Assembly: GCA_016196035.1 (NCBI GenBank)
Contig: JACPYM010000005.1
Span: 1-64,000, forward strand
Direction: 5' to 3'
From: Acidobacteriota bacterium
GTDB taxonomy: Bacteria > Acidobacteriota > Blastocatellia > RBC074
DNA: 64,000 bases
The number at the start of each line of letters is the position of its first letter. Position 1 is the first letter of the stretch. Of the stretch, positions 11,223 through 39,309 are shown piece after piece. A program made the position numbers and the translations under genes. Below the pieces are notes generated by a model, which had not been told where the DNA came from, did not search any database, and saw only the letters and a program-made list of their open reading frames with translations.

Positions 11223-11882
11223 ATGCCGCAACTCTTTCGGCGCAGCAGTAACACGCTTGCGCGTTTGAGTCTTGTGCTCGTCGTGTTGGCGGCGGGCGGC
11301 GCCGGGTGGGCGCTACTTGAATTGCAACGTTCGTCCTATATTACACAGGCATTTGTGGCCCGCGATCAGCCGGTTCAGTTTTCCCATAAACACCACGTGG
11401 GGGATGACGGCATTGATTGCCGTTATTGCCATCTCACGGTTGAGACGGCGGCCAGCGCTGGTTTGCCTCCGACAAAAACGTGCATGAATTGCCATTCTCA
11501 ATTGTTTTCCAATACCCAGTATCTGGAGATCGTGCGCGCCAGTTGGAGAAATAATCAGCCCATCAAATGGACCAAAGTGCACGACTTGCCCGACTTCGCT
11601 TATTTCAATCACAGCATTCACGTCAACAAAGGCGTCGGCTGTTCGACCTGCCACGGGCGGATTGATGAAATGCCCGGCATTTGGAATGTTTCGTCGTTGC
11701 AAATGGAGTGGTGCATTCAATGCCACCGCAACCCCGAAGCGGTGCTGCGTGACAAGAAAGACATCACCAATATGGAGTGGCAGGCCGGACCCGATCAGGC
11801 CGTCAAAGGCAAAGAGCTTGCCCAAAAATACAACATTCAGTCGAAAGAAGTGCTGACGAGCTGTTCGACTTGCCATAGATAA
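11223..11882 (+). CDS. actA: Alternative complex III pentaheme cytochrome c subunit ActA
   Basis: A 219-residue protein with one N-terminal membrane anchor (LARLSLVLVVLAAGGAGWAL) and five CxxCH heme sites: CRYCH, CMNCH, CSTCH, CIQCH and CSTCH. Five hemes, small size and position as the first gene match ActA of alternative complex III, which relays electrons from menaquinol oxidation to downstream cytochromes on the outer face of the membrane. Further histidines (FSHKHH, FNHSIHV) can supply distal ligands. It opens a plus-strand series that runs to ctaF. Confidence 0.93.
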   Translation: MPQLFRRSSNTLARLSLVLVVLAAGGAGWALLELQRSSYITQAFVARDQPVQFSHKHHVGDDGIDCRYCHLTVETAASAGLPPTKTCMNCHSQLFSNTQYLEIVRASWRNNQPIKWTKVHDLPDFAYFNHSIHVNKGVGCSTCHGRIDEMPGIWNVSSLQMEWCIQCHRNPEAVLRDKKDITNMEWQAGPDQAVKGKELAQKYNIQSKEVLTSCSTCHR

Positions 11883-11965: not shown

Positions 11966-14900
11966 ATGTCTCATCGAGAACATCATCCTGAACTTGAGCC
12001 GATTCGCGCAAAGCTCAAAGAGGCCAAAGGCCGTGAATTCTGGCGCAGCCTGGAAGAACTGGCCGACACCGAGCGCTTCAAAGAGTTTTTGCACCGCGAG
12101 TTTCCCGCTTTGAATGCGCCGGAAGGGGATCCGTCCTGGCTTGATCCGGCTGGTCGGCGCAGCTTTTTGAAGCTGATGGGCGCTTCGATGGCGTTTGCCG
12201 GCTTGACCGCTTGCACGGTGCAACCGACCGAACTCGCCGTGCCGTATGTGCAGAACCCGGATGGATACTTGCCGGGCAAATCCTATTTCTTTGCGACGGC
12301 GATGCGTTTGCACGGCGTGGCCGAGGGCCTGCTGGTCGAAAGCCACGAAGGCCGTCCGACCAAGATCGAGGGCAACCCCGAACACCCGGCCAGCAAGGGC
12401 GGCACGAGCGTGCTGTCGCAGGCTTCGATTTTGAACCTCTATGATCCTGATCGCTCCCGGTCGGTGCTTTATAAAGGTTCGACGGCGCGCTGGGGCGATT
12501 TGCTGGATGCCTTGCGCGGTGTGCTGGACACACAGCGTCCGAAGAAAGGCGCCGGGTTGCGCATCCTGACCGAAGCGACGACCTCGCCCACGCTGGGCGC
12601 ACAGTTCAAAGCGCTGCTGACCGACCTGCCCGAAGCCAAGTGGCACCAGTACGAGCCGGGCGGCCCGAATGAAGCGCGGCTGGGCAGCAAGCTGGCGTTT
12701 GGGCAGATGCTCAATACCGTTTACAAATTCGATCAAGCGGATGTGGTCTTGTCGCTCGACGCCGATTTTCTAGTCGAAGGGGCGGGCAATTTGCGCTATG
12801 CGCGTGACTTCATCAATCGCCGCCGGTTGGTTGATGGCAAGACGGAAATGAATCGCCTGTACGTGGCCGAAAGCACGGTGACGCGTACCGGGGCCAAAGC
12901 CGATCACCGTTTGCCCATCAAAGCCAGGGAAGTCGAAAACCTTGCGCGGGCCGTGGCTGCCGAAGTCGGCGCGCCAGGCGTCAGCGGCAGCTTGAGCGGG
13001 GAAGCCGATAAATTTGCCAAGGCCGTGGCCAAAGACTTGAGCGCCCACAAAGGCAAATGCATTGTGGTTGCTGGTCAGCACCAACCCGCTGCGGTGCACG
13101 CCTTGGCGCATGTCATCAACGCCGCGCTTGGGAATGTTGGTCAGACGGTAGTGCACACCGCTTCGCTTGAAGCCGCGCCAGCCGACCACGGCGCTTCGAT
13201 CTCTGAGCTAACCGCCGCCTTGAACGAAGGCAAAGTCGAAGTGCTGGTCATCATCGGGGCGAATCCGGTTTACACCGCGCCGCACGATTTGAAATTCGGC
13301 GACGCGCTGCAAAAAGCCGGGTTGCGCATCCATATGGGTTCGCATCACGACGAAACCGGCGAGCTTTGCCATTGGCATATTCCCGAAGCGCATTACCTGG
13401 AAGATTGGAGCGATGCCCTGGCTTACGATGGCACTGTTTCGATCATTCAGCCGCTGATCAAACCGCTTTACGAAAGCAAATCGCCGCACGAACTGATCGC
13501 GGCGCTGGCCGGGTATGCGACCAAAACCAGTTACGATCTGGTGCGCGACACTTGGAAGGCGCGGCTCGGCGCGGACTTTGAAGCCAAGTGGAAAAAAGCC
13601 CTGCACGACGGGTTGGTCGAAAACACGGCCTTGCCCGCCTTGCCGCTCGATCAAGTCGCGCTCAAGAGCGATTGGTCGGCCAACGCCAAGCCCACTGCCC
13701 AGAATGACCGCGAAATTGTCTTCCGCCTTGACCCAAGTGTTCACGATGGCCGTTATGCCAACAATGGCTGGTTGCAGGAAACGCCCAAGCCGCTTTCAAA
13801 AGTAACCTGGGACAACTACGCGATCATCAGCCCGAAGACAGCCACTGAATTGGGACTGGCCCCCGATAAAGAATGGCATGCCACCAAGGCGAACCTGATC
13901 AACCTCAAGCACGGCACTGAAGAGTTGGCGCTGCCAGTCTGGGTTCAACCCGGGCAGCCGGATAATTCGATCACCGTGTTTTTGGGCTACGGACGCAAGC
14001 GCGCGGGCAATGTCGGTACCGGGACGGGCTTCGACACCTACCGGCTGCGCACCAGTGCCGAGCCGTGGATTGCCACCAATGGAGTCAGCTTTGCAGCCGC
14101 TTCTGGCACTTATGTCCTGGCGACGACGCAAGAGCATTTCAACATTGACACTTCCGGTCTGGAAGAAGGCGACTTGCAACCGCGCCACATCGTCCGCACC
14201 ACGGTGCTTGAAGAGTACAAGAAAGACCCGCAGAGCGTGCATCACGGCGCGCATAAGCCGGGCAAGGAACTGACGATCTACAAGCCGGAGCAGTACCCAT
14301 ACAATGGTTATGCCTGGGGCATGACGATTGATATGAATGCCTGTATCGGTTGCAATGCCTGCATCGTGGCCTGTGTCTCTGAAAACAACATCGCGGTCGT
14401 GGGCAAAGATGTCGTCACACGCGGACGCATCATGCATTGGCTGCGGATTGACACCTATTTCAAAGGCGACACGGTCAACCCGGAAGTCTACTTCCAACCG
14501 ATGCTCTGCCAGCATTGCGAACAGGCGCCTTGCGAGGTCGTTTGTCCGGTCAATGCCACGGTTCACGATGCCGAAGGGTTGAACGTCCAGGTTTATAACC
14601 GCTGCGTCGGCACGCGCTATTGCTCGAACAACTGCCCCTACAAGGTACGCCGCTTCAACTATCTGTTGTACGGCGATTGGGAGTCGCCGAGCTTGAAGAA
14701 TGTGCGCAATCCGGACGTGACCGTGCGCACGCGCGGTGTGATGGAGAAGTGCACTTACTGCACGCAGCGCATTCAGCAGGGCAAGATCGAAGCCGAGAAA
14801 CAGAACCGCAAAGTGCAGGATGGCGACATTCAAACCGCCTGCCAAACCGCCTGCCCGACGGAGGCGATCATCTTTGGCGACATCAATGATCAGAGCGCGC

Positions 14901-15073
14901 GCGTCCATAAGCTGAAGAACGAAGCGCGCAATTACGAAGTGCTGGCTGATTTGAATACCCGGCCGCGTACCAGCTATTTGGCTGAAATCCGCAACCCGAA
15001 CCCTGAATTAGCCGGGTCGGCGAGTGGCAGCCACGGCTCAGCAACTACGGGCGGGGAGGCAAAACATGGCTGA
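11966..15073 (+). CDS. actB: Alternative complex III iron-sulfur subunit ActB
   Basis: A 1,035-residue fusion. A Tat-like motif GRRSFLKLMGAS near residue 55 is followed by a molybdopterin-oxidoreductase-like domain (to about residue 730) and a four-cluster ferredoxin-like domain. Cysteine groups are CIGCNACIVAC, CQHCEQAPCEVVCP, CVGTRYCSNNCP and CTYCTQRI with CQTACPTEA. In known ActB the molybdopterin-like domain carries no cofactor and the Fe-S clusters take electrons from quinol oxidation. The last 8 bp overlap actC, so the two are probably translationally coupled. Confidence 0.93.
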   Translation: MSHREHHPELEPIRAKLKEAKGREFWRSLEELADTERFKEFLHREFPALNAPEGDPSWLDPAGRRSFLKLMGASMAFAGLTACTVQPTELAVPYVQNPDGYLPGKSYFFATAMRLHGVAEGLLVESHEGRPTKIEGNPEHPASKGGTSVLSQASILNLYDPDRSRSVLYKGSTARWGDLLDALRGVLDTQRPKKGAGLRILTEATTSPTLGAQFKALLTDLPEAKWHQYEPGGPNEARLGSKLAFGQMLNTVYKFDQADVVLSLDADFLVEGAGNLRYARDFINRRRLVDGKTEMNRLYVAESTVTRTGAKADHRLPIKAREVENLARAVAAEVGAPGVSGSLSGEADKFAKAVAKDLSAHKGKCIVVAGQHQPAAVHALAHVINAALGNVGQTVVHTASLEAAPADHGASISELTAALNEGKVEVLVIIGANPVYTAPHDLKFGDALQKAGLRIHMGSHHDETGELCHWHIPEAHYLEDWSDALAYDGTVSIIQPLIKPLYESKSPHELIAALAGYATKTSYDLVRDTWKARLGADFEAKWKKALHDGLVENTALPALPLDQVALKSDWSANAKPTAQNDREIVFRLDPSVHDGRYANNGWLQETPKPLSKVTWDNYAIISPKTATELGLAPDKEWHATKANLINLKHGTEELALPVWVQPGQPDNSITVFLGYGRKRAGNVGTGTGFDTYRLRTSAEPWIATNGVSFAAASGTYVLATTQEHFNIDTSGLEEGDLQPRHIVRTTVLEEYKKDPQSVHHGAHKPGKELTIYKPEQYPYNGYAWGMTIDMNACIGCNACIVACVSENNIAVVGKDVVTRGRIMHWLRIDTYFKGDTVNPEVYFQPMLCQHCEQAPCEVVCPVNATVHDAEGLNVQVYNRCVGTRYCSNNCPYKVRRFNYLLYGDWESPSLKNVRNPDVTVRTRGVMEKCTYCTQRIQQGKIEAEKQNRKVQDGDIQTACQTACPTEAIIFGDINDQSARVHKLKNEARNYEVLADLNTRPRTSYLAEIRNPNPELAGSASGSHGSATTGGEAKHG

Positions 15074-16508
15074 AGAAGTGATGAGAAACAAAGACGTTGA
15101 TCCGCGTCCGCCGTTGATCGGGCCGGGACACGACGTCCGTTCGATTACCACGAAGATCATAGATATGGTCTTCATGCGTGGGTTCAAAAAGGGCTGGATT
15201 TTCGGCTTCGCCATTTCGTTTTTGGGCGCGTTGATGTTGTTCAACACGATTGCCTACCTGGTGCTAAAAGGTGTGGGCATTTGGGGCAACAACATCCCGG
15301 TCGGCTGGGCCTTCGACATTATCAACTTTGTTTGGTGGATCGGCATCGGCCACGCGGGCACTTTGATTTCGGCGATTCTGTTGCTGCTGCGGCAAAACTG
15401 GCGCAATTCGATCAACCGCTTTGCCGAAGCCATGACGCTCTTTGCCGTGGCTTGCGCGGGCTTGTTCCCAGCGCTGCACACGGGCCGTCCGTGGGTTGAC
15501 TATTACCTCTTCCCGCTGCCGAACACGATGGGCATGTGGCCGAACTTCAAAAGCCCGCTGATGTGGGATGTGTTTGCGGTTTCGACCTACGCCACGGTGT
15601 CGGCGATTTTCTGGTTCATCGGTCTGATTCCGGATTTTGCCACGATGCGCGACCGGGCGAGCGACAAATGGAAGCGGCTGGTCTTTGGCCTGTTGGCGAT
15701 GGGCTGGCGCGGCGATGCGCGGCACTGGCATCGTTATGAAACGGCGTATCTGCTGCTGGCCGGGCTTTCGACGCCGCTGGTGCTTTCGGTGCACACCATC
15801 GTTTCATTCGACTTCTCGATTGGCATCGTGCCGGGCTGGCACGCGACGATCTTTCCGCCCTACTTTGTGGCGGGCGCGGTCTATGCCGGATTTGCGATGG
15901 TGCTGACCATCGGCTTGCCGCTGATCAAGTTTTATCACCTCGAAGATTTCATCACCAAACGGCACATCCGCAATATGTGCAAGGTCATGCTGACCACTGG
16001 GCTGATCGTGGTTTACGGCTACGGAATGGAAGCCTTCTTTGCGATGTATGCGGGCAGCACCTGGGAAGATTTCATGTTCAAGAATCGCACGATGGGGCCG
16101 TATGGGTGGGCGTACTGGCTGCTACTCTTGTGCAACTTCCTGGTGCCGCAGTTGCTGTGGTTGAAGCGCTTCCGCGACAATCAAGTCGTGCTCTTCGTCA
16201 TCTGCATGTTCATCAACGTGGGCATGTGGCTGGAACGCTTCGTCATCATCGTGACCAGTTTGAATCGGGACTTTCTGCCGGGTTCGTGGCGGATGTACCA
16301 CCCGACGCCTTTCGATTTCTCGATGTTCTTCGGCACGATTGGCTTCTTCCTGACGTTGATGTTCTTGTTCATCCGGTTCGTGCCGATCATCCCGATTTTC
16401 GAGATGAAGGCGCTCTTGCCTGAAACCAAAGTGGACGAACACACGGTGGCTGAGAAAGAGAAGAGCATCGGTGGCGCGGTTGTGCCGTCACCCTCGTATG
16501 GAGATTGA
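15066..16508 (+). CDS. actC: Alternative complex III quinol-binding membrane subunit ActC (NrfD-like)
   Basis: A 480-residue polytopic protein of the NrfD/PsrC family. The ATG at 15066 overlaps the end of actB; an upstream frame from 15024 lies inside actB. About ten hydrophobic helices are visible, with conserved features such as WWIGIGHAGTLISAILLL, a WVDYYLFPLPNTMGMWPNF loop and ETAYLLLAGLSTPLVLSVHT. ActC is thought to bind menaquinol near the outer face and may help move protons. The C-terminus is polar and ends in the cytoplasm or periplasm (VDEHTVAEKEKSIGG). Confidence 0.93.
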   Translation: MAEEVMRNKDVDPRPPLIGPGHDVRSITTKIIDMVFMRGFKKGWIFGFAISFLGALMLFNTIAYLVLKGVGIWGNNIPVGWAFDIINFVWWIGIGHAGTLISAILLLLRQNWRNSINRFAEAMTLFAVACAGLFPALHTGRPWVDYYLFPLPNTMGMWPNFKSPLMWDVFAVSTYATVSAIFWFIGLIPDFATMRDRASDKWKRLVFGLLAMGWRGDARHWHRYETAYLLLAGLSTPLVLSVHTIVSFDFSIGIVPGWHATIFPPYFVAGAVYAGFAMVLTIGLPLIKFYHLEDFITKRHIRNMCKVMLTTGLIVVYGYGMEAFFAMYAGSTWEDFMFKNRTMGPYGWAYWLLLLCNFLVPQLLWLKRFRDNQVVLFVICMFINVGMWLERFVIIVTSLNRDFLPGSWRMYHPTPFDFSMFFGTIGFFLTLMFLFIRFVPIIPIFEMKALLPETKVDEHTVAEKEKSIGGAVVPSPSYGD

Positions 16509-16513
16509 TATTT

Positions 16514-16585
16514 AGTGGTCAGTGGTCAGTGGTCAGTGGTCAGTTCAACCGGCCACTGACCACTGACCACTGACCACTGACCACT
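16514..16585. repeat. AGTGGTC heptamer palindrome between actC and actD
   Basis: Four tandem copies of AGTGGTC (16514-16541) are followed by a short spacer and four tandem copies of GACCACT (16558-16585), the exact complement. The RNA would form a long hairpin inside the operon transcript, ending 5 bp before the actD ATG, so it could influence actD translation or mRNA processing. Confidence 0.95.
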
Positions 16586-16590
16586 GCCTT

Positions 16591-17136
16591 ATGAACAAAT
16601 CAGAAGAAAAAGGCATCTACGGCGTCATCGCGGAATTCGACGATCCGAATTCGATTGTGGCCGCCGCGCGCAAAGCGTATGCGTCGGGCTATCGCCGCCT
16701 CAACGCTTATTCGCCCTATCCGATTGAAGAGTTGTCCGAAGCGATTGGCTTTCATAAAGACCGTGTCGCGCCGGTCGTGTTTGTGTCGGGCCTGCTGGGG
16801 CTGATCGGCGGATTTACGATGATCTATTGGATGACGGCGATTGATTATCCGCTCAACGTGGGTGGCCGTCCGTTGCTGAGTTTGCCGGCGTGGATTCCGA
16901 TTATGTTCGAGTGCACGGTGCTGCTGGCCGCGTTCGGCGCGGTGATCGGGATGCTGGCGATGAACCGGCTGCCGCAACCTTATCATCCGGTATTCAACGT
17001 GCCGAGTTTCAACCGGGCTTCGACGGATCGCTTTTACCTTTGCGTGAAAGCTGATGATCCGAACTACAGCCATGACGGCACGCGAGCCTTTCTCGCCAGT
17101 CTGGGCGCGCGGGAGGTGAATGATGTCGCAAACTGA
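16591..17136 (+). CDS. actD: Alternative complex III membrane subunit ActD (DUF3341)
   Basis: A 181-residue protein with a soluble N-terminal domain (GVIAEFDDPNSIVAAARKAY, RLNAYSPYPIEE) and two transmembrane helices (about residues 63-80 and 100-125). This matches ActD, which joins the membrane and peripheral parts of alternative complex III. The ATG lies directly after the AGTGGTC palindrome and no good ribosome site is seen, because the palindrome occupies that space. Its 3' end overlaps actE by 17 bp. Confidence 0.9.
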   Translation: MNKSEEKGIYGVIAEFDDPNSIVAAARKAYASGYRRLNAYSPYPIEELSEAIGFHKDRVAPVVFVSGLLGLIGGFTMIYWMTAIDYPLNVGGRPLLSLPAWIPIMFECTVLLAAFGAVIGMLAMNRLPQPYHPVFNVPSFNRASTDRFYLCVKADDPNYSHDGTRAFLASLGAREVNDVAN

Positions 17137-17929
17137 GAAAGCAAAAAGCAAAAGTCAAAAGTCAAAAGTCAAAAATGGTTTGCCTTGTGCTGCCCTTTGC
17201 CTGGAAGCGCGCGGCCACTTCAGGCGCAAATCATTTTTGCTTTTTGCTTTTTGCTTTTTGCCTTTTGCCTTGACTGCCTGCCGCCAGGACATGCACGACA
17301 ACCCGAAATACAAAGCCTACCGCGATGGCGGGATGCGCGAGTATCCGGCAGGCGTAGTAGCGCGCGGTTCGATAGCCGCCAACCCGGCTGCGCCGCCTTC
17401 CGCGATGGGGAATGCGCAGCAAGTGCAAACCGTCAACGCCGTGGTGGCCGGTGATCCGAGCGCCGCACCGACGCCGATTGTGATTCCCAAAGGCGAAGAT
17501 GCGTTCCCGTTCAAGGTCACACAGGAAATTCTGGATCGCGGCCAGGAGCGGTTCAATATCAATTGCGCGCATTGCCACGGCAAACTGGGCCGGGGCGACG
17601 GCATGATTGCGTTGCGCGGCTTCAAAAAACCGCCGTCCTATCACGATGATCGCCTGCGCCAGGCACCCGCCAGCTATTTTTACGATGTGATGACGAACGG
17701 CTTTGGCGCGATGTCGGATTATGCCGCGCAGGTCACGCCGGAAGATCGCTGGAAAATCGCCGCCTACATTCGGGTGTTGCAATTGAGCCAGCGCGCCGAT
17801 TTCAACACGTTGCCCGAAGCCGATAAGGAGAAGGTGCGCGACGCCGCGACACAGAAACCGGCGGCGACCGGGCACGGCGCAACCGCCGAACACGGCGGGG
17901 AAAAGAAAGCGGAAGAACACGCGAAGTAA
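17120..17929 (+). CDS. actE: Alternative complex III monoheme cytochrome c lipoprotein ActE
   Basis: A 269-residue c-type cytochrome with one heme site (CAHCH, about residue 150) and a distal methionine region ([12 protein letters not shown]). A lipobox LTAC near residue 55 predicts a lipid-anchored protein. The ribosome site GGAGGTGA precedes tandem ATGs. The signal peptide is odd: lysine-rich residues 7-19 and the hydrophobic stretch [17 protein letters not shown] are both encoded by a heptamer inverted repeat (17141-17268). The presequence is therefore unusually long. ActE passes electrons toward the oxidase. The C-terminus is rich in Ala, His and Glu. Confidence 0.9.
17141..17268. repeat. 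Heptamer inverted repeat inside the actE signal-peptide coding region
   Basis: Left arm: five 7-mers, GCAAAAA, GCAAAAG, TCAAAAG, TCAAAAG and TCAAAAA (17141-17175). Right arm: four TTTTTGC units and one CTTTTGC (17234-17268). The arms are largely complementary across a 58-nt loop. Translated, the left arm gives Lys/Ser-rich residues and the right arm the hydrophobic core of the signal peptide. Confidence 0.92.
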
Positions 17930-17973
17930 TCGCAGTCCGTATTGAACCCGCATTGAAGAGGACGAATTTAAGC

Positions 17974-19203
17974 ATGAACGAGAACTATGCTCCTCCGGCA
18001 GAACTCGGAGGAATTCAAACCAAAGCCTTGATCGTTGGCCTGCTGGGTTTGGTCATTGGGTTGGGCGGCGCGGCGGCCACGGGCGGCAAGGAACTGGCGT
18101 TGCAAGCCTATCTGGTCTCTTACGTTTTCTGGGTTGGCATCTCGTTGGGCAGTCTGGGGCTGCTGATGGTGCAATACCTGGGCGGCGGCGGCTGGGGCTT
18201 GGTGATTCGCCGCATTTTAGAAGCGGGCGCGAGTACGCTCTGGCTAATGCTGGCGGGCTTCCTGGTGGTGATTTATGGGATGCTCAATGGCGGACTGTAT
18301 GAATGGGCGCATCCCGTCGGACATCTGGCCGAGTTGATGCAAACCAACAAGCAGTGGGCCTTCAAAGCCAAGTGGCTGACGCCGACCGGCTTCATCGTGC
18401 GCGGGCTGATTTACTTCGGCATCTGGCTTTTGTTGACGACGAAGCTGCGCGGCAATTCGCATAAGCAAGACCAGACGGGCGACCGCGCCTATTTGCAAAG
18501 CTCGCAGAATTGGAGCGGCCCCGGCTTCCTGGTCTTCGCGTTGTCGCTGACCTTTGCGGCGATTGATTGGGTGATGTCGCTGGATGCCGAGTGGTATTCG
18601 ACCATTTTCGGAATGTTGATGCTGGCGGGTTGGGGCGTGGCGACGATTGCGTTGATCATCTGGATTTGCGTAACGCTGGCCAAGCGGGATGATCTGCGGC
18701 ACGTTTATCAATCCAAGCTTTTCCACGATCTGGGCATGCTGCAACTCGCGCTCGTGATGGTCTGGGCGTATTTCTCTTTCTCACAATTGGTCATCATCTG
18801 GTCGGGCAACTTGCCGGAAGAGATTCCCTGGTTTCTAGAGCGGTTCAAAGGCGTCTGGCGTTACTTGGGAGTGGCGATCATCCTGCTGCATTTCGTGATG
18901 CCGTTCCTGCTCTTGCTCTCGCGCGATTTGAAGCGCCACGCCAACCGCTTGAAGTGGGTGGCCCTGTTGCTGCTGGGCATGCGCTTCTTCGATTTGATGT
19001 GGATAATGGTGCCCGAATTCCAGAATCGCCACGACCACGTCAATGACCATTTTGTGGATGGCCTGTGGTGGTATGTCGCCATGCTGTTTGGCATGGGCGG
19101 CATTTGGCTCTGGTGGCTGGTGGGGCAGTTGCGGCAACGTTCGCTGTTGCCGGTCAATGATCCGCAGTTGCAGGAAGCGTTGGCAGCGGGCGGTCATCAC
19201 TAA
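17974..19203 (+). CDS. actF: Alternative complex III membrane subunit ActF (NrfD-like)
   Basis: A 409-residue polytopic protein, the second NrfD-like subunit of the complex. About ten hydrophobic helices are visible, including [17 protein letters not shown] near the N-terminus and a [19 protein letters not shown] segment near the end. The ATG at 17974 follows AAGAGGACG; an in-frame codon at 17953 is less likely. The order after actE is the usual one. ActF contributes to the membrane part and possibly to proton transfer. It is followed by GGTACC palindrome copy 3. Confidence 0.92.
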
Positions 19204-19885: not shown

Positions 19886-20018
19886 TAGGACTTGCGCAGA
19901 GCACGAGCGAGATTGCCACAGAGGCACAGAAGCACAGAGCTTTATTACAAGTCTGGTGGGGTTCTCTGTTTTTCTCCGTGTCTCCGTGCCTCTGTGGCAA
20001 ACCCTTGCGTAAGTCCTA
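19886..20018. repeat. TAGGACTT-ended inverted repeat with CACAGAG core (MITE-like)
   Basis: The ends are inverted: TAGGACTTGCGCA at 19886 and its near-complement ending AAGTCCTA at 20018. Inside are CACAGAG-type units (CACAGAG, CACAGAA, CACAGAG with 1-nt spacers) facing CTCTGT/CTCCGTG units. No transposase is encoded. It fills the gap before sco and adds in-frame codons upstream of the likely sco start. Confidence 0.82.
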
Positions 20019-20034
20019 CAAAAGATCATTGTGG

Positions 20035-20847
20035 ATGGTGCGCAGCCTCCTGCTTTCGCTCTTTGTAAATGGAATCGTTTGGGCGCAACCGGCGGGCGTG
20101 CGACCGCCGATGTTGCGCGATGTCGGCATTGACCAGTTGCTTAATAACCAGGTGCCGCTCGACCTGGAGTTTGTGGACGAAACCGGCAAGGCGGTGAAAC
20201 TGAAAGACTATTTCACCGACAAGCCGGTGCTGCTGACCTTGGTTTATTACGATTGCCCGCAGTTGTGCAATCAGGTGCTCAACGGCGCGACAGGCGCATT
20301 GAAGACGCTGCCGATGACGCCGGGCAAAGATTTTATATGGCTGACGGTCAGTTTCGATCCGCGCGAGCAACCCGAACTGGCGGCGGCCAAGAAAGATAGC
20401 TATTTGCAACGCCTGGGTAAAAAAGAAGCTGCGGCGGGCTGGCATTTTCTGACCGGTAGTGAACCGGCGATTAAAGCGCTGGCGCAAGCGGTCGGCTTCC
20501 GTTTCTTGTGGGATCCGGCGAAAAAGCAATATGCGCACGCCAGCGGCATTATGGTGCTGACGCCTGAAGGCAAGGTTTCGCGCTATTTTTATGGGATCGA
20601 ATTTGCGCCGCGCGATTTGCGCCTGGGTTTCGTGGACGCTTCGCAGGGCAAGGTCGGATCGCTGGCCGACCAGATCATCATGTACTGTTACCAGTACGAC
20701 CCTGAGTCCGGCACCTACAGTCTGGTGTTGATGCGGGTCTTGCGCATCTTCGCCAGTCTGACCTTGCTCACGTTAGTCGCATTATTTTTTTATCTGCGCC
20801 GGAAGACGAAACAGAAAGAGGCGCAATGGGCACAAGCAGCGCACTGA
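20035..20847 (+). CDS. SCO1/SenC-family copper chaperone
   Basis: A 270-residue protein. The ATG at 20035 is preferred because it gives a signal peptide ([17 protein letters not shown]); the longer frame from 19849 reads through a repeat element. The thioredoxin-like domain has the copper motif CPQLC and the distal histidine in [12 protein letters not shown]-terminal helix ([19 protein letters not shown]) anchors it with a basic end. SCO proteins insert copper into the CuA site of oxidase subunit II, which is encoded directly downstream. Confidence 0.92.
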
Positions 20848-35276: not shown

Positions 35277-35927
35277 ATGTCCACCCAGGAAAATGACGCG
35301 CCTGAGCGCAAAGAATTCGTGCCCGAACAGGAAAACCAGCAGCCTGGCGAAGTGACGCGCCTGCTGTTGAAATGGCAAGCCGGCGATACCGAGGCTTTCA
35401 ATCAATTGACAGCCATCGTGGGCGGCGAATTGCGGCGGCGGGCGCATCACTATCTGCGCCGCGAACGCGCCGGTCACACCCTGCAGACGACGGCGCTGGT
35501 TGATGACGTCTGGCTGCGCTTGGGCGGCGGTAAAGAAGATTTGCATTGGCAAAACCGCGCGCACTTTTACGCCATCGCCGCCGATGTAATGCGGCGCATC
35601 CTGGTCGAAGCAGCGCGCCGGCGCAAAAGTCAAAAACGCGGCGGCGGCCTGACACAGACTCCGCTTGAAGAGGGGCTGACCGTGACCGTCGAGCTTGATC
35701 TTGATTTGCTGGCGCTCGACGAAGCTTTGGCATGGTTGAAGCAGCGTTCAGAGCGCAAGTATCAGGTTGTGGTGCTGCGCTTTTTCGCCGGGCTGACCAA
35801 CGAAGAAATCGCCGCTGTGCTGAAGATTTCCCCCCTTGCCGTCAGGAGCGATTGGGAGACGGCGAAACGCTGGCTGTTTGGCAGGTTGAATGGGAAGGAG
35901 GCCGTCAATGGAGCAAAAGCGTTTTGA
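35277..35927 (+). CDS. ECF-type RNA polymerase sigma factor (Sig-HLTH group)
   Basis: A 216-residue sigma factor. The ATG at 35277 follows a near-perfect AAAGGAGG; a longer frame from 34977 has no support. Region 2 shows EVTRLLLKWQAGDTEAF and HTLQTTALVDDVWLRL with NRAHFYAIAADVMRRILVEA, the marks of the group common in Acidobacteriota and Planctomycetota. Region 4 has LRFFAGLTNEEIAAVLKIS. It overlaps the kinase gene by 20 bp, so kinase and sigma are made together; in this group the kinase may phosphorylate or otherwise control the sigma factor. Confidence 0.92.
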   Translation: MSTQENDAPERKEFVPEQENQQPGEVTRLLLKWQAGDTEAFNQLTAIVGGELRRRAHHYLRRERAGHTLQTTALVDDVWLRLGGGKEDLHWQNRAHFYAIAADVMRRILVEAARRRKSQKRGGGLTQTPLEEGLTVTVELDLDLLALDEALAWLKQRSERKYQVVVLRFFAGLTNEEIAAVLKISPLAVRSDWETAKRWLFGRLNGKEAVNGAKAF

Positions 35928-38900
35928 CGAAATTGACGAAAGGCTGGCAGCCGCCTTGCAAATCGAGCCTGAAGCGCGCGCCGCTTTCCTGCGACAGGTT
36001 TGCGCCGGCGATGACGAATTGCGCCGCGCAGTTGAATTTCTGCTCAGCCAGGGCGGGCCGTCTGAAAAGCTTGAAGTTACCGCCGTCGCTTACCTGGCCG
36101 AAGTGCTGGCCGGACAGGCGGGCGCAGTTACAACGGGTCAGCGCATCAACCACTACACCATCAAAGCGTGCATTGGGCGCGGCGGGATGGGTGAGGTCTG
36201 GCGCGCTTGGGACGAGAAGCTCGAACGCGACGTGGCGCTCAAGCTGTTGCCGCTGGAATTTGCCGCCGACCCGGAGCGGGTAGTGCGCTTCCGGCAGGAG
36301 GCGCTCACCATCTCGGCGCTCAACCACGCGAACATCGTGGCGATTTACGACTCCGGTCAGGTGACAGAGCAGTTCGGCGAGTTGCATTTCATCGTGACTG
36401 AATTGGTTGAAGGGGAGACGCTGCGCGCGCAACTCAAACAGTCAGCCCTGGACTGGCGCAAGGTTGTGCCGCTGGCTACGCAGATGGCCGAGGCGCTCCA
36501 CGCCGCGCACACCGTGGGCATCATTCACCGCGACATCAAGCCCGAAAACATCATGATGCAAGCCGACGGTCGCTTGAAGGTGCTCGATTTCGGCATTGCA
36601 AAACTAAGGGATGAGGGCGGAGGGATGAGGGATGAAAGCGGCCGTCCGCTTCATCCTTCATCCTTCATCCCTCATCCTTCACTCACCGCAGCGGGCGCGA
36701 TGCTGGGCACGCTCAAATACATGTCGCCCGAACAGGCGCGCGGCGAGGTGCTGGAGGTGCAGACGGACATCTTCTCGTTGGGCTTGGTGCTTTACGAAAT
36801 GCTTGCGGGGCGGCATCCCTACAGCGGCAAATCCGGCGCGGAACTTAGCGAAGCTTTGCAGAGCGCTGATGAAATTCCGCCGTTGAGTGCGTTGAACGCT
36901 GCGCTGCCAGCGGCGCTTGAACGCAGCGTGACGCGGGCGCTCAAGAAGCGGCGCGCGGAACGTTACGAGTCGGCGGGCGAGTTGCTGGCCGATCTGAAGG
37001 AATTGAAGTCGCTGATCGAGGTCGGGCGCGACGCGCAGCAAGAGCAGTTGCTCAAGGCGCAAAATGCCGATCAATTGTTGACGCGGTATGTGGTCTTTCA
37101 CGAGGCTGACCGTCAGACGCGCATTCCGCTTGGCAGCTTGTGGAGCATCTGGCGCTTTGCCAGCTTGAAGCGCGGCAGGTTGGAGCGCGAACTGATCCGC
37201 AAGAGCTTCTTCAGTGGATTGCTGGGAGCAGGCTGGCGGATGCTGTTGATAGCGGCGGTGACGATGCTGGTGGCGGCGTGGTTGTCGGTGACTGATGTTT
37301 GGGAAGAGCGGGTGTTGCGCGACGGACACACGGCGGCAGTGCGGCGCGCGGTCTTTTCGCCGGATGGCAAGCTGCTCGTTTCGGTCAGCGAAGACAAGCA
37401 GGTGATCGTGTGGGATTTTGAGAAGCGCGAACGGCTGGCGACACTGAACGAACACAAGGCCGAAGTGGTCAGTGTCGCTTTTGCGCCGGATGGCAAACGA
37501 TTTGCCACGCAGAGCCGCGACGGCGTGGTGATCGTGTGGGACACGGCGCGGCGCGCGAAGATCGCGGAATGGCGTGATTCTCAGGAATCGCCCCTTGATG
37601 GCTTGGCTTTCTCGCCCGATGGTCGGCTGCTGGCTTATTCGGTGTACGACGGCAATGCCAACACATACAACACGCGGTTGCGGGAAACCGTGCGCTGGGA
37701 GCAAGTCAGCGAACTGCGCGATGCTAGTGGCCGCAGCTTTATCTTTTCCCACAACAGTCGGCAACTGATGCCAGCAGGTGAATGGAAAATCTTTGATCCG
37801 GCGACTGGCCGACAGTTGGCTGGCGCGCGCTCTGACGGCGGAAACTGGATCGCTCTCTCGCCGGATGCGGCGCGGCTTGCGAAGATCAATTCAGCAGGCG
37901 AAGTTTCGGTGTATCAACTGACGCGCCCCGGCGACCTGACGCGAACGAAGCTGTTGCACCGCGAACGCGCGCACGACGATCACGGGCGCACTGTTGAGTT
38001 CTCGCCGGACGGACGCTTGATTGCTTCGGGCGCAGAGCACGTCGTGCTGTGGAATGCGGTGACGCTGAAACGGGAAGCGGTGCTGGAACACACCTCCATC
38101 GTTTGGAGTGTGGCCTTTGCGCCGGACGGGCGCTGGCTGGTTTCGACGCACGGCGACGGTTCGATCCTGGTCTGGGATTTGGTCACGCGCACACGCGCGG
38201 CAAATTTCAATGAACACAGCGGCCCGGTGCGCGCCGTCGCCTTTGCCAGTGACGGCCAGCGCATTGCTTCGGCCAGCGAAGATCGTTCGATCATTATCTG
38301 GAACGCCGCAACCGCCCGCAAAGAAGCGGTGCTGGCCGGACACGAAGCGCGTATCAACGGCGTGGCCTTCGCGCCCGACGGCCAATCGCTCGCCGCCGCC
38401 GCGCAGGATCACACCCTCCGGCTCTGGGATGTGGCGCAACAGCAGCTTCGGTGGCAGGTAACGGATGTTGATCTTCCCGGTTATTGTGCCGCACTCTCGC
38501 CGGATGGGCGCTGGGTGGCGACGACGGTTGGCGTCTACGAACGCGCATCAGGCCGTCAAAGACTGGATTTAAGATCGTCGGATCCAAATCCGCGAGGGCA
38601 AATCTATGGCGCGGCGTTCTCCGCCGACGGGCGACGGCTCGCCTGCGTAACAGAAGGCGGCTGGCTGCTGATTTGGGAGGTCGCGACGTGGCAATTGCGC
38701 GCCCGGCAGCAAGTGCCCGCCACCCACCAGATCAGCGTCAGCTTTGCGCCCGACGGCCAAACTCTGGTCACGGGCGAAGACGAAGGCGCGCTGCGGCTCT
38801 GGCGCACCGAACCGCTCACGCAACTCGCCGTCATCGGCCAACATCAGGCGCGCATCAAGTCGGTTGCTTATGCGCCAGATGGCGAGACGGTCGCGTCAGC

Positions 38901-39309
38901 CAGCGATGACAAGACGCTGGCGTTATGGGATGTCACCCGCCGCCGCCTCATCACCCAAATCGGCACGCATACCGCGCCCGTGCTGGCGGTCGCCTTTGCG
39001 CCGGATGGCAAGCAGCTTGTCGCCGGTGGACACGACCGCACGGTGCGGCTTTATACGCGGCGGCGCTCGTTGTGGGGGTGGCGCGCGCCCACTGAATTGC
39101 TTAACTATCGAATCTTGCGATGGCGCATTGGCAAACCAGGTTACAGCCGCTCTGGCCGTTGCCCGCCGACCAGCAACGAACCCAGTCGCACTGCATTGCC
39201 GCTGCTTTTCGCGTTCTTCTCGCCCAACACGCGAATCGTCAGCTTGTGCTCGTTCATCCCTAGGCCGCCGGGGACGATGCGCGTTTGGATGTGCGCGGTC
39301 GTGTCGTAA
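35908..39309 (+). CDS. Membrane Ser/Thr protein kinase with WD40 repeats
   Basis: A 1,133-residue protein (ATG 35908, after AAGGAGG). The kinase domain has IGRGGMGEVWRA, VALKLL (Lys 112), HRDIKPEN (Asp 209), DFG (227-229) and MSPEQARGE. The activation loop carries a 26-residue insert encoded by a heptamer palindrome. One transmembrane helix lies near residue 450. About ten WD40 units follow (for example VAFAPDGKRFATQSRDGVVI) and form an outside propeller. The last roughly 57 residues are antisense to the convergent SGNH gene, so the native stop may be lost. It is coupled to the ECF sigma gene. Confidence 0.9.
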   Translation: MEQKRFDEIDERLAAALQIEPEARAAFLRQVCAGDDELRRAVEFLLSQGGPSEKLEVTAVAYLAEVLAGQAGAVTTGQRINHYTIKACIGRGGMGEVWRAWDEKLERDVALKLLPLEFAADPERVVRFRQEALTISALNHANIVAIYDSGQVTEQFGELHFIVTELVEGETLRAQLKQSALDWRKVVPLATQMAEALHAAHTVGIIHRDIKPENIMMQADGRLKVLDFGIAKLRDEGGGMRDESGRPLHPSSFIPHPSLTAAGAMLGTLKYMSPEQARGEVLEVQTDIFSLGLVLYEMLAGRHPYSGKSGAELSEALQSADEIPPLSALNAALPAALERSVTRALKKRRAERYESAGELLADLKELKSLIEVGRDAQQEQLLKAQNADQLLTRYVVFHEADRQTRIPLGSLWSIWRFASLKRGRLERELIRKSFFSGLLGAGWRMLLIAAVTMLVAAWLSVTDVWEERVLRDGHTAAVRRAVFSPDGKLLVSVSEDKQVIVWDFEKRERLATLNEHKAEVVSVAFAPDGKRFATQSRDGVVIVWDTARRAKIAEWRDSQESPLDGLAFSPDGRLLAYSVYDGNANTYNTRLRETVRWEQVSELRDASGRSFIFSHNSRQLMPAGEWKIFDPATGRQLAGARSDGGNWIALSPDAARLAKINSAGEVSVYQLTRPGDLTRTKLLHRERAHDDHGRTVEFSPDGRLIASGAEHVVLWNAVTLKREAVLEHTSIVWSVAFAPDGRWLVSTHGDGSILVWDLVTRTRAANFNEHSGPVRAVAFASDGQRIASASEDRSIIIWNAATARKEAVLAGHEARINGVAFAPDGQSLAAAAQDHTLRLWDVAQQQLRWQVTDVDLPGYCAALSPDGRWVATTVGVYERASGRQRLDLRSSDPNPRGQIYGAAFSADGRRLACVTEGGWLLIWEVATWQLRARQQVPATHQISVSFAPDGQTLVTGEDEGALRLWRTEPLTQLAVIGQHQARIKSVAYAPDGETVASASDDKTLALWDVTRRRLITQIGTHTAPVLAVAFAPDGKQLVAGGHDRTVRLYTRRRSLWGWRAPTELLNYRILRWRIGKPGYSRSGRCPPTSNEPSRTALPLLFAFFSPNTRIVSLCSFIPRPPGTMRVWMCAVVS
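36607..36683. repeat. AGGGATG heptamer palindrome inside the kinase activation loop
   Basis: Eleven consecutive 7-nt units in register: AGGGATG, AGGGCGG, AGGGATG, AGGGATG, AAAGCGG, CCGTCCG, three CTTCATC, CCTCATC and CTTCACT. The left and right halves are complementary, and the unit at the centre is self-facing. It is translated without a stop between DFGIAKL and AAGAMLGT of the kinase. Confidence 0.92.

Follow-up and report, generated by a model that had tools for sequence, protein, structure and literature searches.

Background

Rickettsia palindromic elements are dispersed palindromes of 100-150 bp that lie in frame inside conserved protein genes (Ogata et al. 2000, reviewed in PMC2229807); the host proteins tolerate these insertions, and the one that was tested proved neutral or slightly harmful (PMC2229807). 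In Yersinia, the signal peptide predicted for YPO1552 is formed in part by the RU-2/YPAL element, whereas homologues of this protein carry unrelated signals (Delihas 2007, PMC2759123). Heptameric simple repeats have been described from Xanthomonas, Nostoc and Calothrix as intergenic, G-rich, variable in copy number and sometimes inverted, and that work reports no role for them in signal peptides (PMC4692102). The Rickettsia elements and the single Yersinia case are the closest precedents for the feature described here. A literature search that paired heptamer repeats with signal peptides or with Acidobacteria, and had subscription journals largely outside its coverage, returned nothing closer than Delihas 2007; nor did any report in that literature, from which most subscription papers were absent, describe a repeat family as a systematic source of signal peptides.

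The element that we describe resembles those of Rickettsia in being a dispersed palindrome, present both between genes and in frame within conserved genes, and differs from them in that its arms are tandem heptamers, that it occupies the position of a signal peptide and that the insert provides a needed function. The Yersinia case is one fusion, in a putative protein and without tandem heptamers, whereas here many conserved exported proteins in several genomes are concerned and there is evidence for selection on the coding arm. Tandem 7-nt units are shared with the repeats of Xanthomonas and Nostoc, but the GGGAATC / GGGGAYT unit of the latter is not matched by the CAAAANN / TTTTGNN units of the present family. 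Signal peptides tolerate very varied sequence, and the origin of new ones has, to our knowledge, rarely been seen. Here the source is visible: the repeat period and the palindrome guarantee a basic and then a hydrophobic stretch, in all frames and in both orientations. The result is a natural and repeated case of repetitive DNA becoming part of an essential protein and a simple test of the minimal requirements of a signal peptide; it also means that gene finding and annotation will misplace starts in such genomes.

Results and discussion

The actE locus and its repeat-encoded signal

The window, by which we mean the whole 64,000-nucleotide stretch of Acidobacteriota DNA that was analysed (its genome is called G000 below), contains a complete alternative complex III cluster, with actB, actC and actD recognized by Pfam and actE by Pfam together with PDB chains (Table 1). 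ActE of Rhodothermus has been proposed to be a lipoprotein from its lipobox (PMC5928083). Judged by sequence, the window's actE is a genuine ActE with a conserved start and lipobox. Its Shine-Dalgarno sequence and ATG 17123 align with their counterparts in relatives, the RQDM behind the LTAC lipobox is common to relatives, and Chloroflexota ActE has a counterpart of LTAC-QDM. The first ATG, at 17120, from which the lipobox cysteine would count as Cys54, lies too close to the Shine-Dalgarno sequence; since the latter and ATG 17123 match those of relatives, ATG 17120 is probably unused.

Table 1. Coordinates of the alternative complex III genes and of the actE repeat element within the window.
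Feature	Position	Strand	Basis
actA-like multiheme cytochrome c; start of cluster	11223..11882	+	CXXCH motifs, position
actB	11966..15073	+	Pfam
actC (NrfD family)	15066..16508	+	Pfam
Heptamer inverted repeat AGTGGTC / CCACTGA in the actC-actD gap	16514..16586	.	Tandem Repeats Finder
actD; stop codon 17134-17136 overlaps the actE start and is the left bound of the element	16591..17136	+	Pfam ActD 2.2e-65
Shine-Dalgarno sequence GGGAGG for actE, within the end of actD	17111..17116	+	Sequence; GAGGTGA..ATG arrangement also in relatives
actE, predicted monoheme cytochrome c lipoprotein	17123..17929	+	Pfam Cytochrome_CBB3 3.4e-14; PDB ActE chains 8k9e_E, 6f0k_E, 6lod_E, 6btm_E
Left arm of element: five A-rich heptamers; Lys/Ser/Gln-rich n-region	17138..17176	+	Tandem Repeats Finder, arm pairing, reading frame
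Translated loop separating the arms	17177..17233	+	Sequence, arm pairing
Right arm of element: five T-rich heptamers; hydrophobic core	17234..17271	+	Tandem Repeats Finder, arm pairing, reading frame
Predicted lipobox LTAC; Cys 17279-17281 is residue +1	17270..17281	+	Alignment with LTACHQDM of 8k9e_E; ActE lipobox proposed in PMC5928083
Heme c motif CAHCH	17564..17578	+	Translation
actF-like membrane protein	17953..19203	+	Position, length; no Pfam match

Between the actD stop codon and mature ActE (Cys 17279) lies a heptamer inverted repeat of 131 bp with 43% GC, against 58% for the gene. Its left end is 2 nt past the stop codon and its right end is at the lipobox, so that the element fills exactly the dispensable stretch. 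The initial annotation had described five A-rich heptamers on the left and five T-rich heptamers on the right, complementary to each other and encoding the ActE signal, and this description holds. The left array reads GCAAAAA, GCAAAAG, TCAAAAG, TCAAAAG, TCAAAAA and the right array TTTTTGC four times, CTTTTGC and C.., both with period 7 in Tandem Repeats Finder (scores 43-55 on the left, 63 on the right), and both are open and in frame within ActE. The arms pair at 16 of 16 positions between 17138-17153 and 17235-17250, and at 25 of 30 overall; as RNA, the element folds into one long hairpin of -56 kcal/mol, a value that 2 of 200 shuffles equalled. The signal is long, with 52 residues preceding the cysteine, and carries a net charge of +8 ahead of a hydrophobic core (best 12-residue hydropathy 2.57), which is followed by LTAC and RQD. 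Like a lipoprotein signal of the Sec and signal peptidase II pathway, by which it would presumably be processed, it thus has a basic n-region, an h-region, a lipobox and an invariant cysteine; it differs in exceeding the usual length and in having the arms of a palindrome as its n- and h-regions.

The 7-nt unit is translated in all three phases, as had also been annotated. Since 3 does not divide 7, every frame gives the same cyclic heptapeptide: SKVKSQK or GKRQKAK from A-arms and FCLLPFA or FLLFAFC from T-arms. The complement of the Lys-rich arm is rich in Phe and Leu because A at the second codon position pairs to a second-position T, and either orientation works because the palindrome presents its A-arm first on either strand. 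Period 7 and palindromic form together thus make such a repeat a two-part export signal whatever its frame or orientation. We propose that a copy situated behind the start codon of an exported protein and ahead of its mature part would become the signal peptide of that protein. In ActE, the A-arm would supply the positive n-region and the T-arm the hydrophobic core, with the old lipobox and cysteine retained for cleavage and lipidation. The sole frequent hazard is the TGA-containing unit TTTTGAY, which is purged from coding T-arms.

A dispersed repeat family at the start of exported proteins

A survey for tandem arrays of period 6-10 in 864 kb of G000 and one related genome found 81, of which most have period 7, whereas a mononucleotide shuffle gave none; heptamer arrays are therefore not due to chance. 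Complete pattern searches for the A/T-rich palindrome gave 75 copies in three genomes of one family, namely 18 in G000, 32 in G010 and 25 in G009, and few or none in G001, G002 and G005. Its distribution across the phylum is patchy, a 20-mer probe being present in 9 of 396 sampled Acidobacteriota genomes. Short repeats are open to assembly error in genomes derived from metagenomes.

The T-arm encodes the h-region of a predicted N-terminal export signal in 21 of the 75 copies, belonging to at least 15 unrelated genes. These copies were assigned manually on the basis of open frames; the start codon is doubtful in L112, L119, L126 and L129, and orthologous copies are not independent. Nine of the 21 proteins are predicted lipoproteins. 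The proteins behind the coding copies are of exported type: cytochromes c, SCO1, a solute-binding lipoprotein, an HlyD/RND adaptor, a PQQ propeller, VWA, PA14, TonB_C, a TPR lipoprotein, ASPIC/FG-GAP, an amidohydrolase and an fn3-domain lipoprotein. At least five additional copies supply the n-region alone. For comparison, a signal-like or TM-like start is present in some 20% of called genes. Among the 75 copies, none was found to contribute clearly to the N-terminus of a cytosolic protein. Given that the same kind of repeat supplies signals to so many unrelated exported proteins, repeat DNA in these genomes looks like a ready supply of signal peptides.

Most copies are intergenic or non-coding and often lie right at gene starts; near cytosolic genes they stand just upstream of the start codon. 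L084, L093, L096, L102, L113, L125, L133, L144 and L148 were considered as coding and judged instead to lie upstream of a cytosolic or membrane gene, while the ambiguous L100 (peptidase S58) and L155 (Fer2 protein) were excluded from the coding set. L084, L093, L096, L102, L125 and L148 end about 4-16 nt 5' of the start codons of cytosolic or membrane genes (ispD, murI, exbD, priA, rbfA), so close that a Shine-Dalgarno sequence would hardly fit. Beyond the family of G000, signal-coding copies were found in G268, G019, G073, G339, G177 and G293, which represent other families and another class.

Other heptamer families were considered as signals and rejected: most units (AGTGGTC/CCACTGA, GGATTGC, GGCAGTT) fail because they carry TGA or lack hydrophobicity, and almost no signal-coding copies of these families were found in the surveyed sequence. 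The repeat in the actC-actD gap, for instance, cannot encode a signal because its units contain TGA.

Selection on the coding arm

Among hand-curated copies from the three genomes G000, G009 and G010, TTTTGAY accounts for 7 of 89 units in coding T-arms, all seven out of phase for a stop. In the A-arms that partner these T-arms, read as complement, the figure is 30 of 61 (Fisher 1e-8), and in the remaining copies it is 107 of 308 (Fisher 1e-7). The requirement for an open frame accounts for part of this avoidance. The unit nevertheless makes up 8% of those observed, against 24% in random choices of arm and phase that leave the frame open (P 0.001; P 0.005 with one gene per orthologue group). 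Since the shortage persists under this control, we conclude that the coding T-arm is constrained as peptide.

ActE and an fn3-domain lipoprotein in related genomes

At the equivalent position of ActE, G007, G001, G002, G005 and the C5 copy of G006, all of the family of G000, have short, ordinary lipoprotein signals and no repeat. Repeat-encoded signals were found in G009, G010, the three other G006 copies and, from another family, G019. An insertion confined to this lineage, which the initial annotation had named as the pattern that would support exaptation, is therefore ruled out by repeats in relatives; many unrelated exported proteins have repeat-encoded signals as well. The units are CAAAAGT/GCAAAAA in G000, CAAAAGT/CAAAAGG with TTTTGCC in G009 and G010, and, within G006, GGCAAAA (C2), AGACAGA/TCTGTCT (C93) or an 8-base unit (C12). 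In G019, the signal is encoded by TTTTGCC, with the T-arm intact and the A-arm decayed. Lipoboxes are less canonical in G009 (SAAC) and G010 (STAC). For the hydrophobic core, repeat-encoded signals score as high as ordinary ActE signals or higher (2.4-3.3 against 2.0-2.6).

In a tree of mature ActE, several forks of which are weak, G007, with its ordinary signal, clusters with the repeat-bearing G009 and G010, and a clade of ordinary-signal ActE separates G000 from G009/G010. The ordinary signals of G007 and G006 C5 are alike (MLKARL.K.G.A.CL...A.G.SAC), so that an ordinary signal is probably ancestral there.

A second hot spot is an fn3-domain lipoprotein (CGKIGEPLPP..), the signal of which is made of TTTTGCC units in G000, G009, G010, G339 and G019, of TACTGTC units in G007 and G008 and of an 8-base CTCCTTGT unit in G006, and is ordinary in G005, G001 and G002. 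The arms in G007 (L197) and G008 (L200) differ and are non-complementary, with GGGAGTC or GGGAGTT as left-hand and TACTGTC as right-hand unit, as would result from joining one half each of two elements.

Origin of the element and alternative explanations

Takeover of the ActE export signal by the repeat is well supported by sequence. The sequences show the anatomy, the reading frame, the lipobox, the recurrence of the element, the avoidance of TGA and the ordinary signals of relatives. We consider it probable (roughly 0.8) that the actE feature is a copy of a dispersed fold-back repeat family that acts as the export signal and has replaced an ordinary lipoprotein signal. The initial annotation had spoken of a mobile-looking palindrome that seems to have taken over the export signal of a core respiratory subunit; the takeover stands, given the repeat-free relatives, and mobility is unproven. 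There is no clear target duplication at 17137/17272 and no exact empty site among nearest relatives that are only about 60% identical. Arms are conserved in unit type between copies and loops mostly are not, which is not the whole-element conservation of a MITE, and the simple version of a single mobile element with a conserved loop was rejected because the loops differ.

Poor conservation of loops would also be expected if the arms grew in place, repeatedly and with no insertion, by slippage of short A-rich and T-rich stretches and fold-back templating between strands, given that signal peptides tolerate almost any basic-then-hydrophobic sequence. Polymerase slippage has already been proposed for heptamers (PMC4692102), and such growth would accommodate units that vary by genome both in ActE (CAAAAGT, AGACAGA, 8-mer) and in the fn3-domain lipoprotein (TTTTGCC, TACTGTC, CTCCTTGT), as well as the non-complementary arms of the latter in G007 and G008. 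Against this, the TTTTGCC unit and the arm layout recur at dozens of unrelated sites per genome and some loops share GTGCCGAC-type motifs, which together suggest copying of units. We take growth in place to be a serious possibility and lean against it; the copies probably arrive as units. Whether such units amount to portable signal-peptide cassettes, independent of frame and orientation, that are spreading in some Acidobacteriota and repeatedly replacing or creating export signals at hot spots such as actE and the fn3-domain lipoprotein is a more tentative matter, for which we would give not quite even odds.

It is unlikely that the hairpin matters as RNA or DNA, for example in slowing translation between actD and actE, in mRNA stability or as a terminator, with the signal peptide as its passenger. 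The stable fold begins just past the start codon, and most copies are non-coding, many of them 4-20 nt 5' of start codons; yet avoidance of TGA is limited to the coding T-arm, exported genes are strongly preferred, and ActE of G019 keeps the T-arm peptide although decay of the A-arm has abolished its hairpin. Very unlikely, in our estimate, is a start of ActE further downstream, such as TTG 17180 or ATG 17291, that would leave the left arm or the whole element untranslated. A gene caller based on codon usage favours 17291, as expected if the codon use of the repeat is foreign, and TTG 17180 would yield a shorter signal of conventional length. However, the Shine-Dalgarno sequence and ATG 17123 are conserved among relatives, a start at 17291 drops the conserved lipobox cysteine and CRQD, and from 17180 the right arm would still be the hydrophobic core.

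Other repeats in the window and in related genomes

An 8-base inverted tandem repeat, CACAGAGG / CTCCGTGT, occupies positions 19917-19996 of the window, in an open 5' extension of a SCO1 gene that probably begins at 20035; the signal of SCO1 in G010 is itself encoded by TTTTGCC units (L105). A large kinase-like ORF (35890-39309) contains, at about residues 241-264, a heptamer inverted repeat of AGGGATG / CTTCATC (positions 36613-36681). In G293, an A/T heptamer palindrome (L281, - strand near 1496, reverse-complement coordinate) forms an in-frame part of an ORF resembling a DnaE/PHP-type polymerase, which reads ..GAELTIE-[NAEGRRQNAEKRGRSFAFCLLPSAFSL]-PVLVSSQEGWRNLCRL.. and recalls an intragenic insertion of the Rickettsia type. 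An ArgS-like ORF of G009 (C24 172168-174243, L214) has two heptamer arrays in its coding region, at 172495 and 173153. G004 is rich in another heptamer family, TTTTGGA (e.g. C55:50768, C64:8073), which is also present in G007, G008 and G010. At the edge of the window, positions 1-513 consist of five copies of a 102-bp tandem repeat, a period of 34 codons that suggests TPR-like protein repeats.
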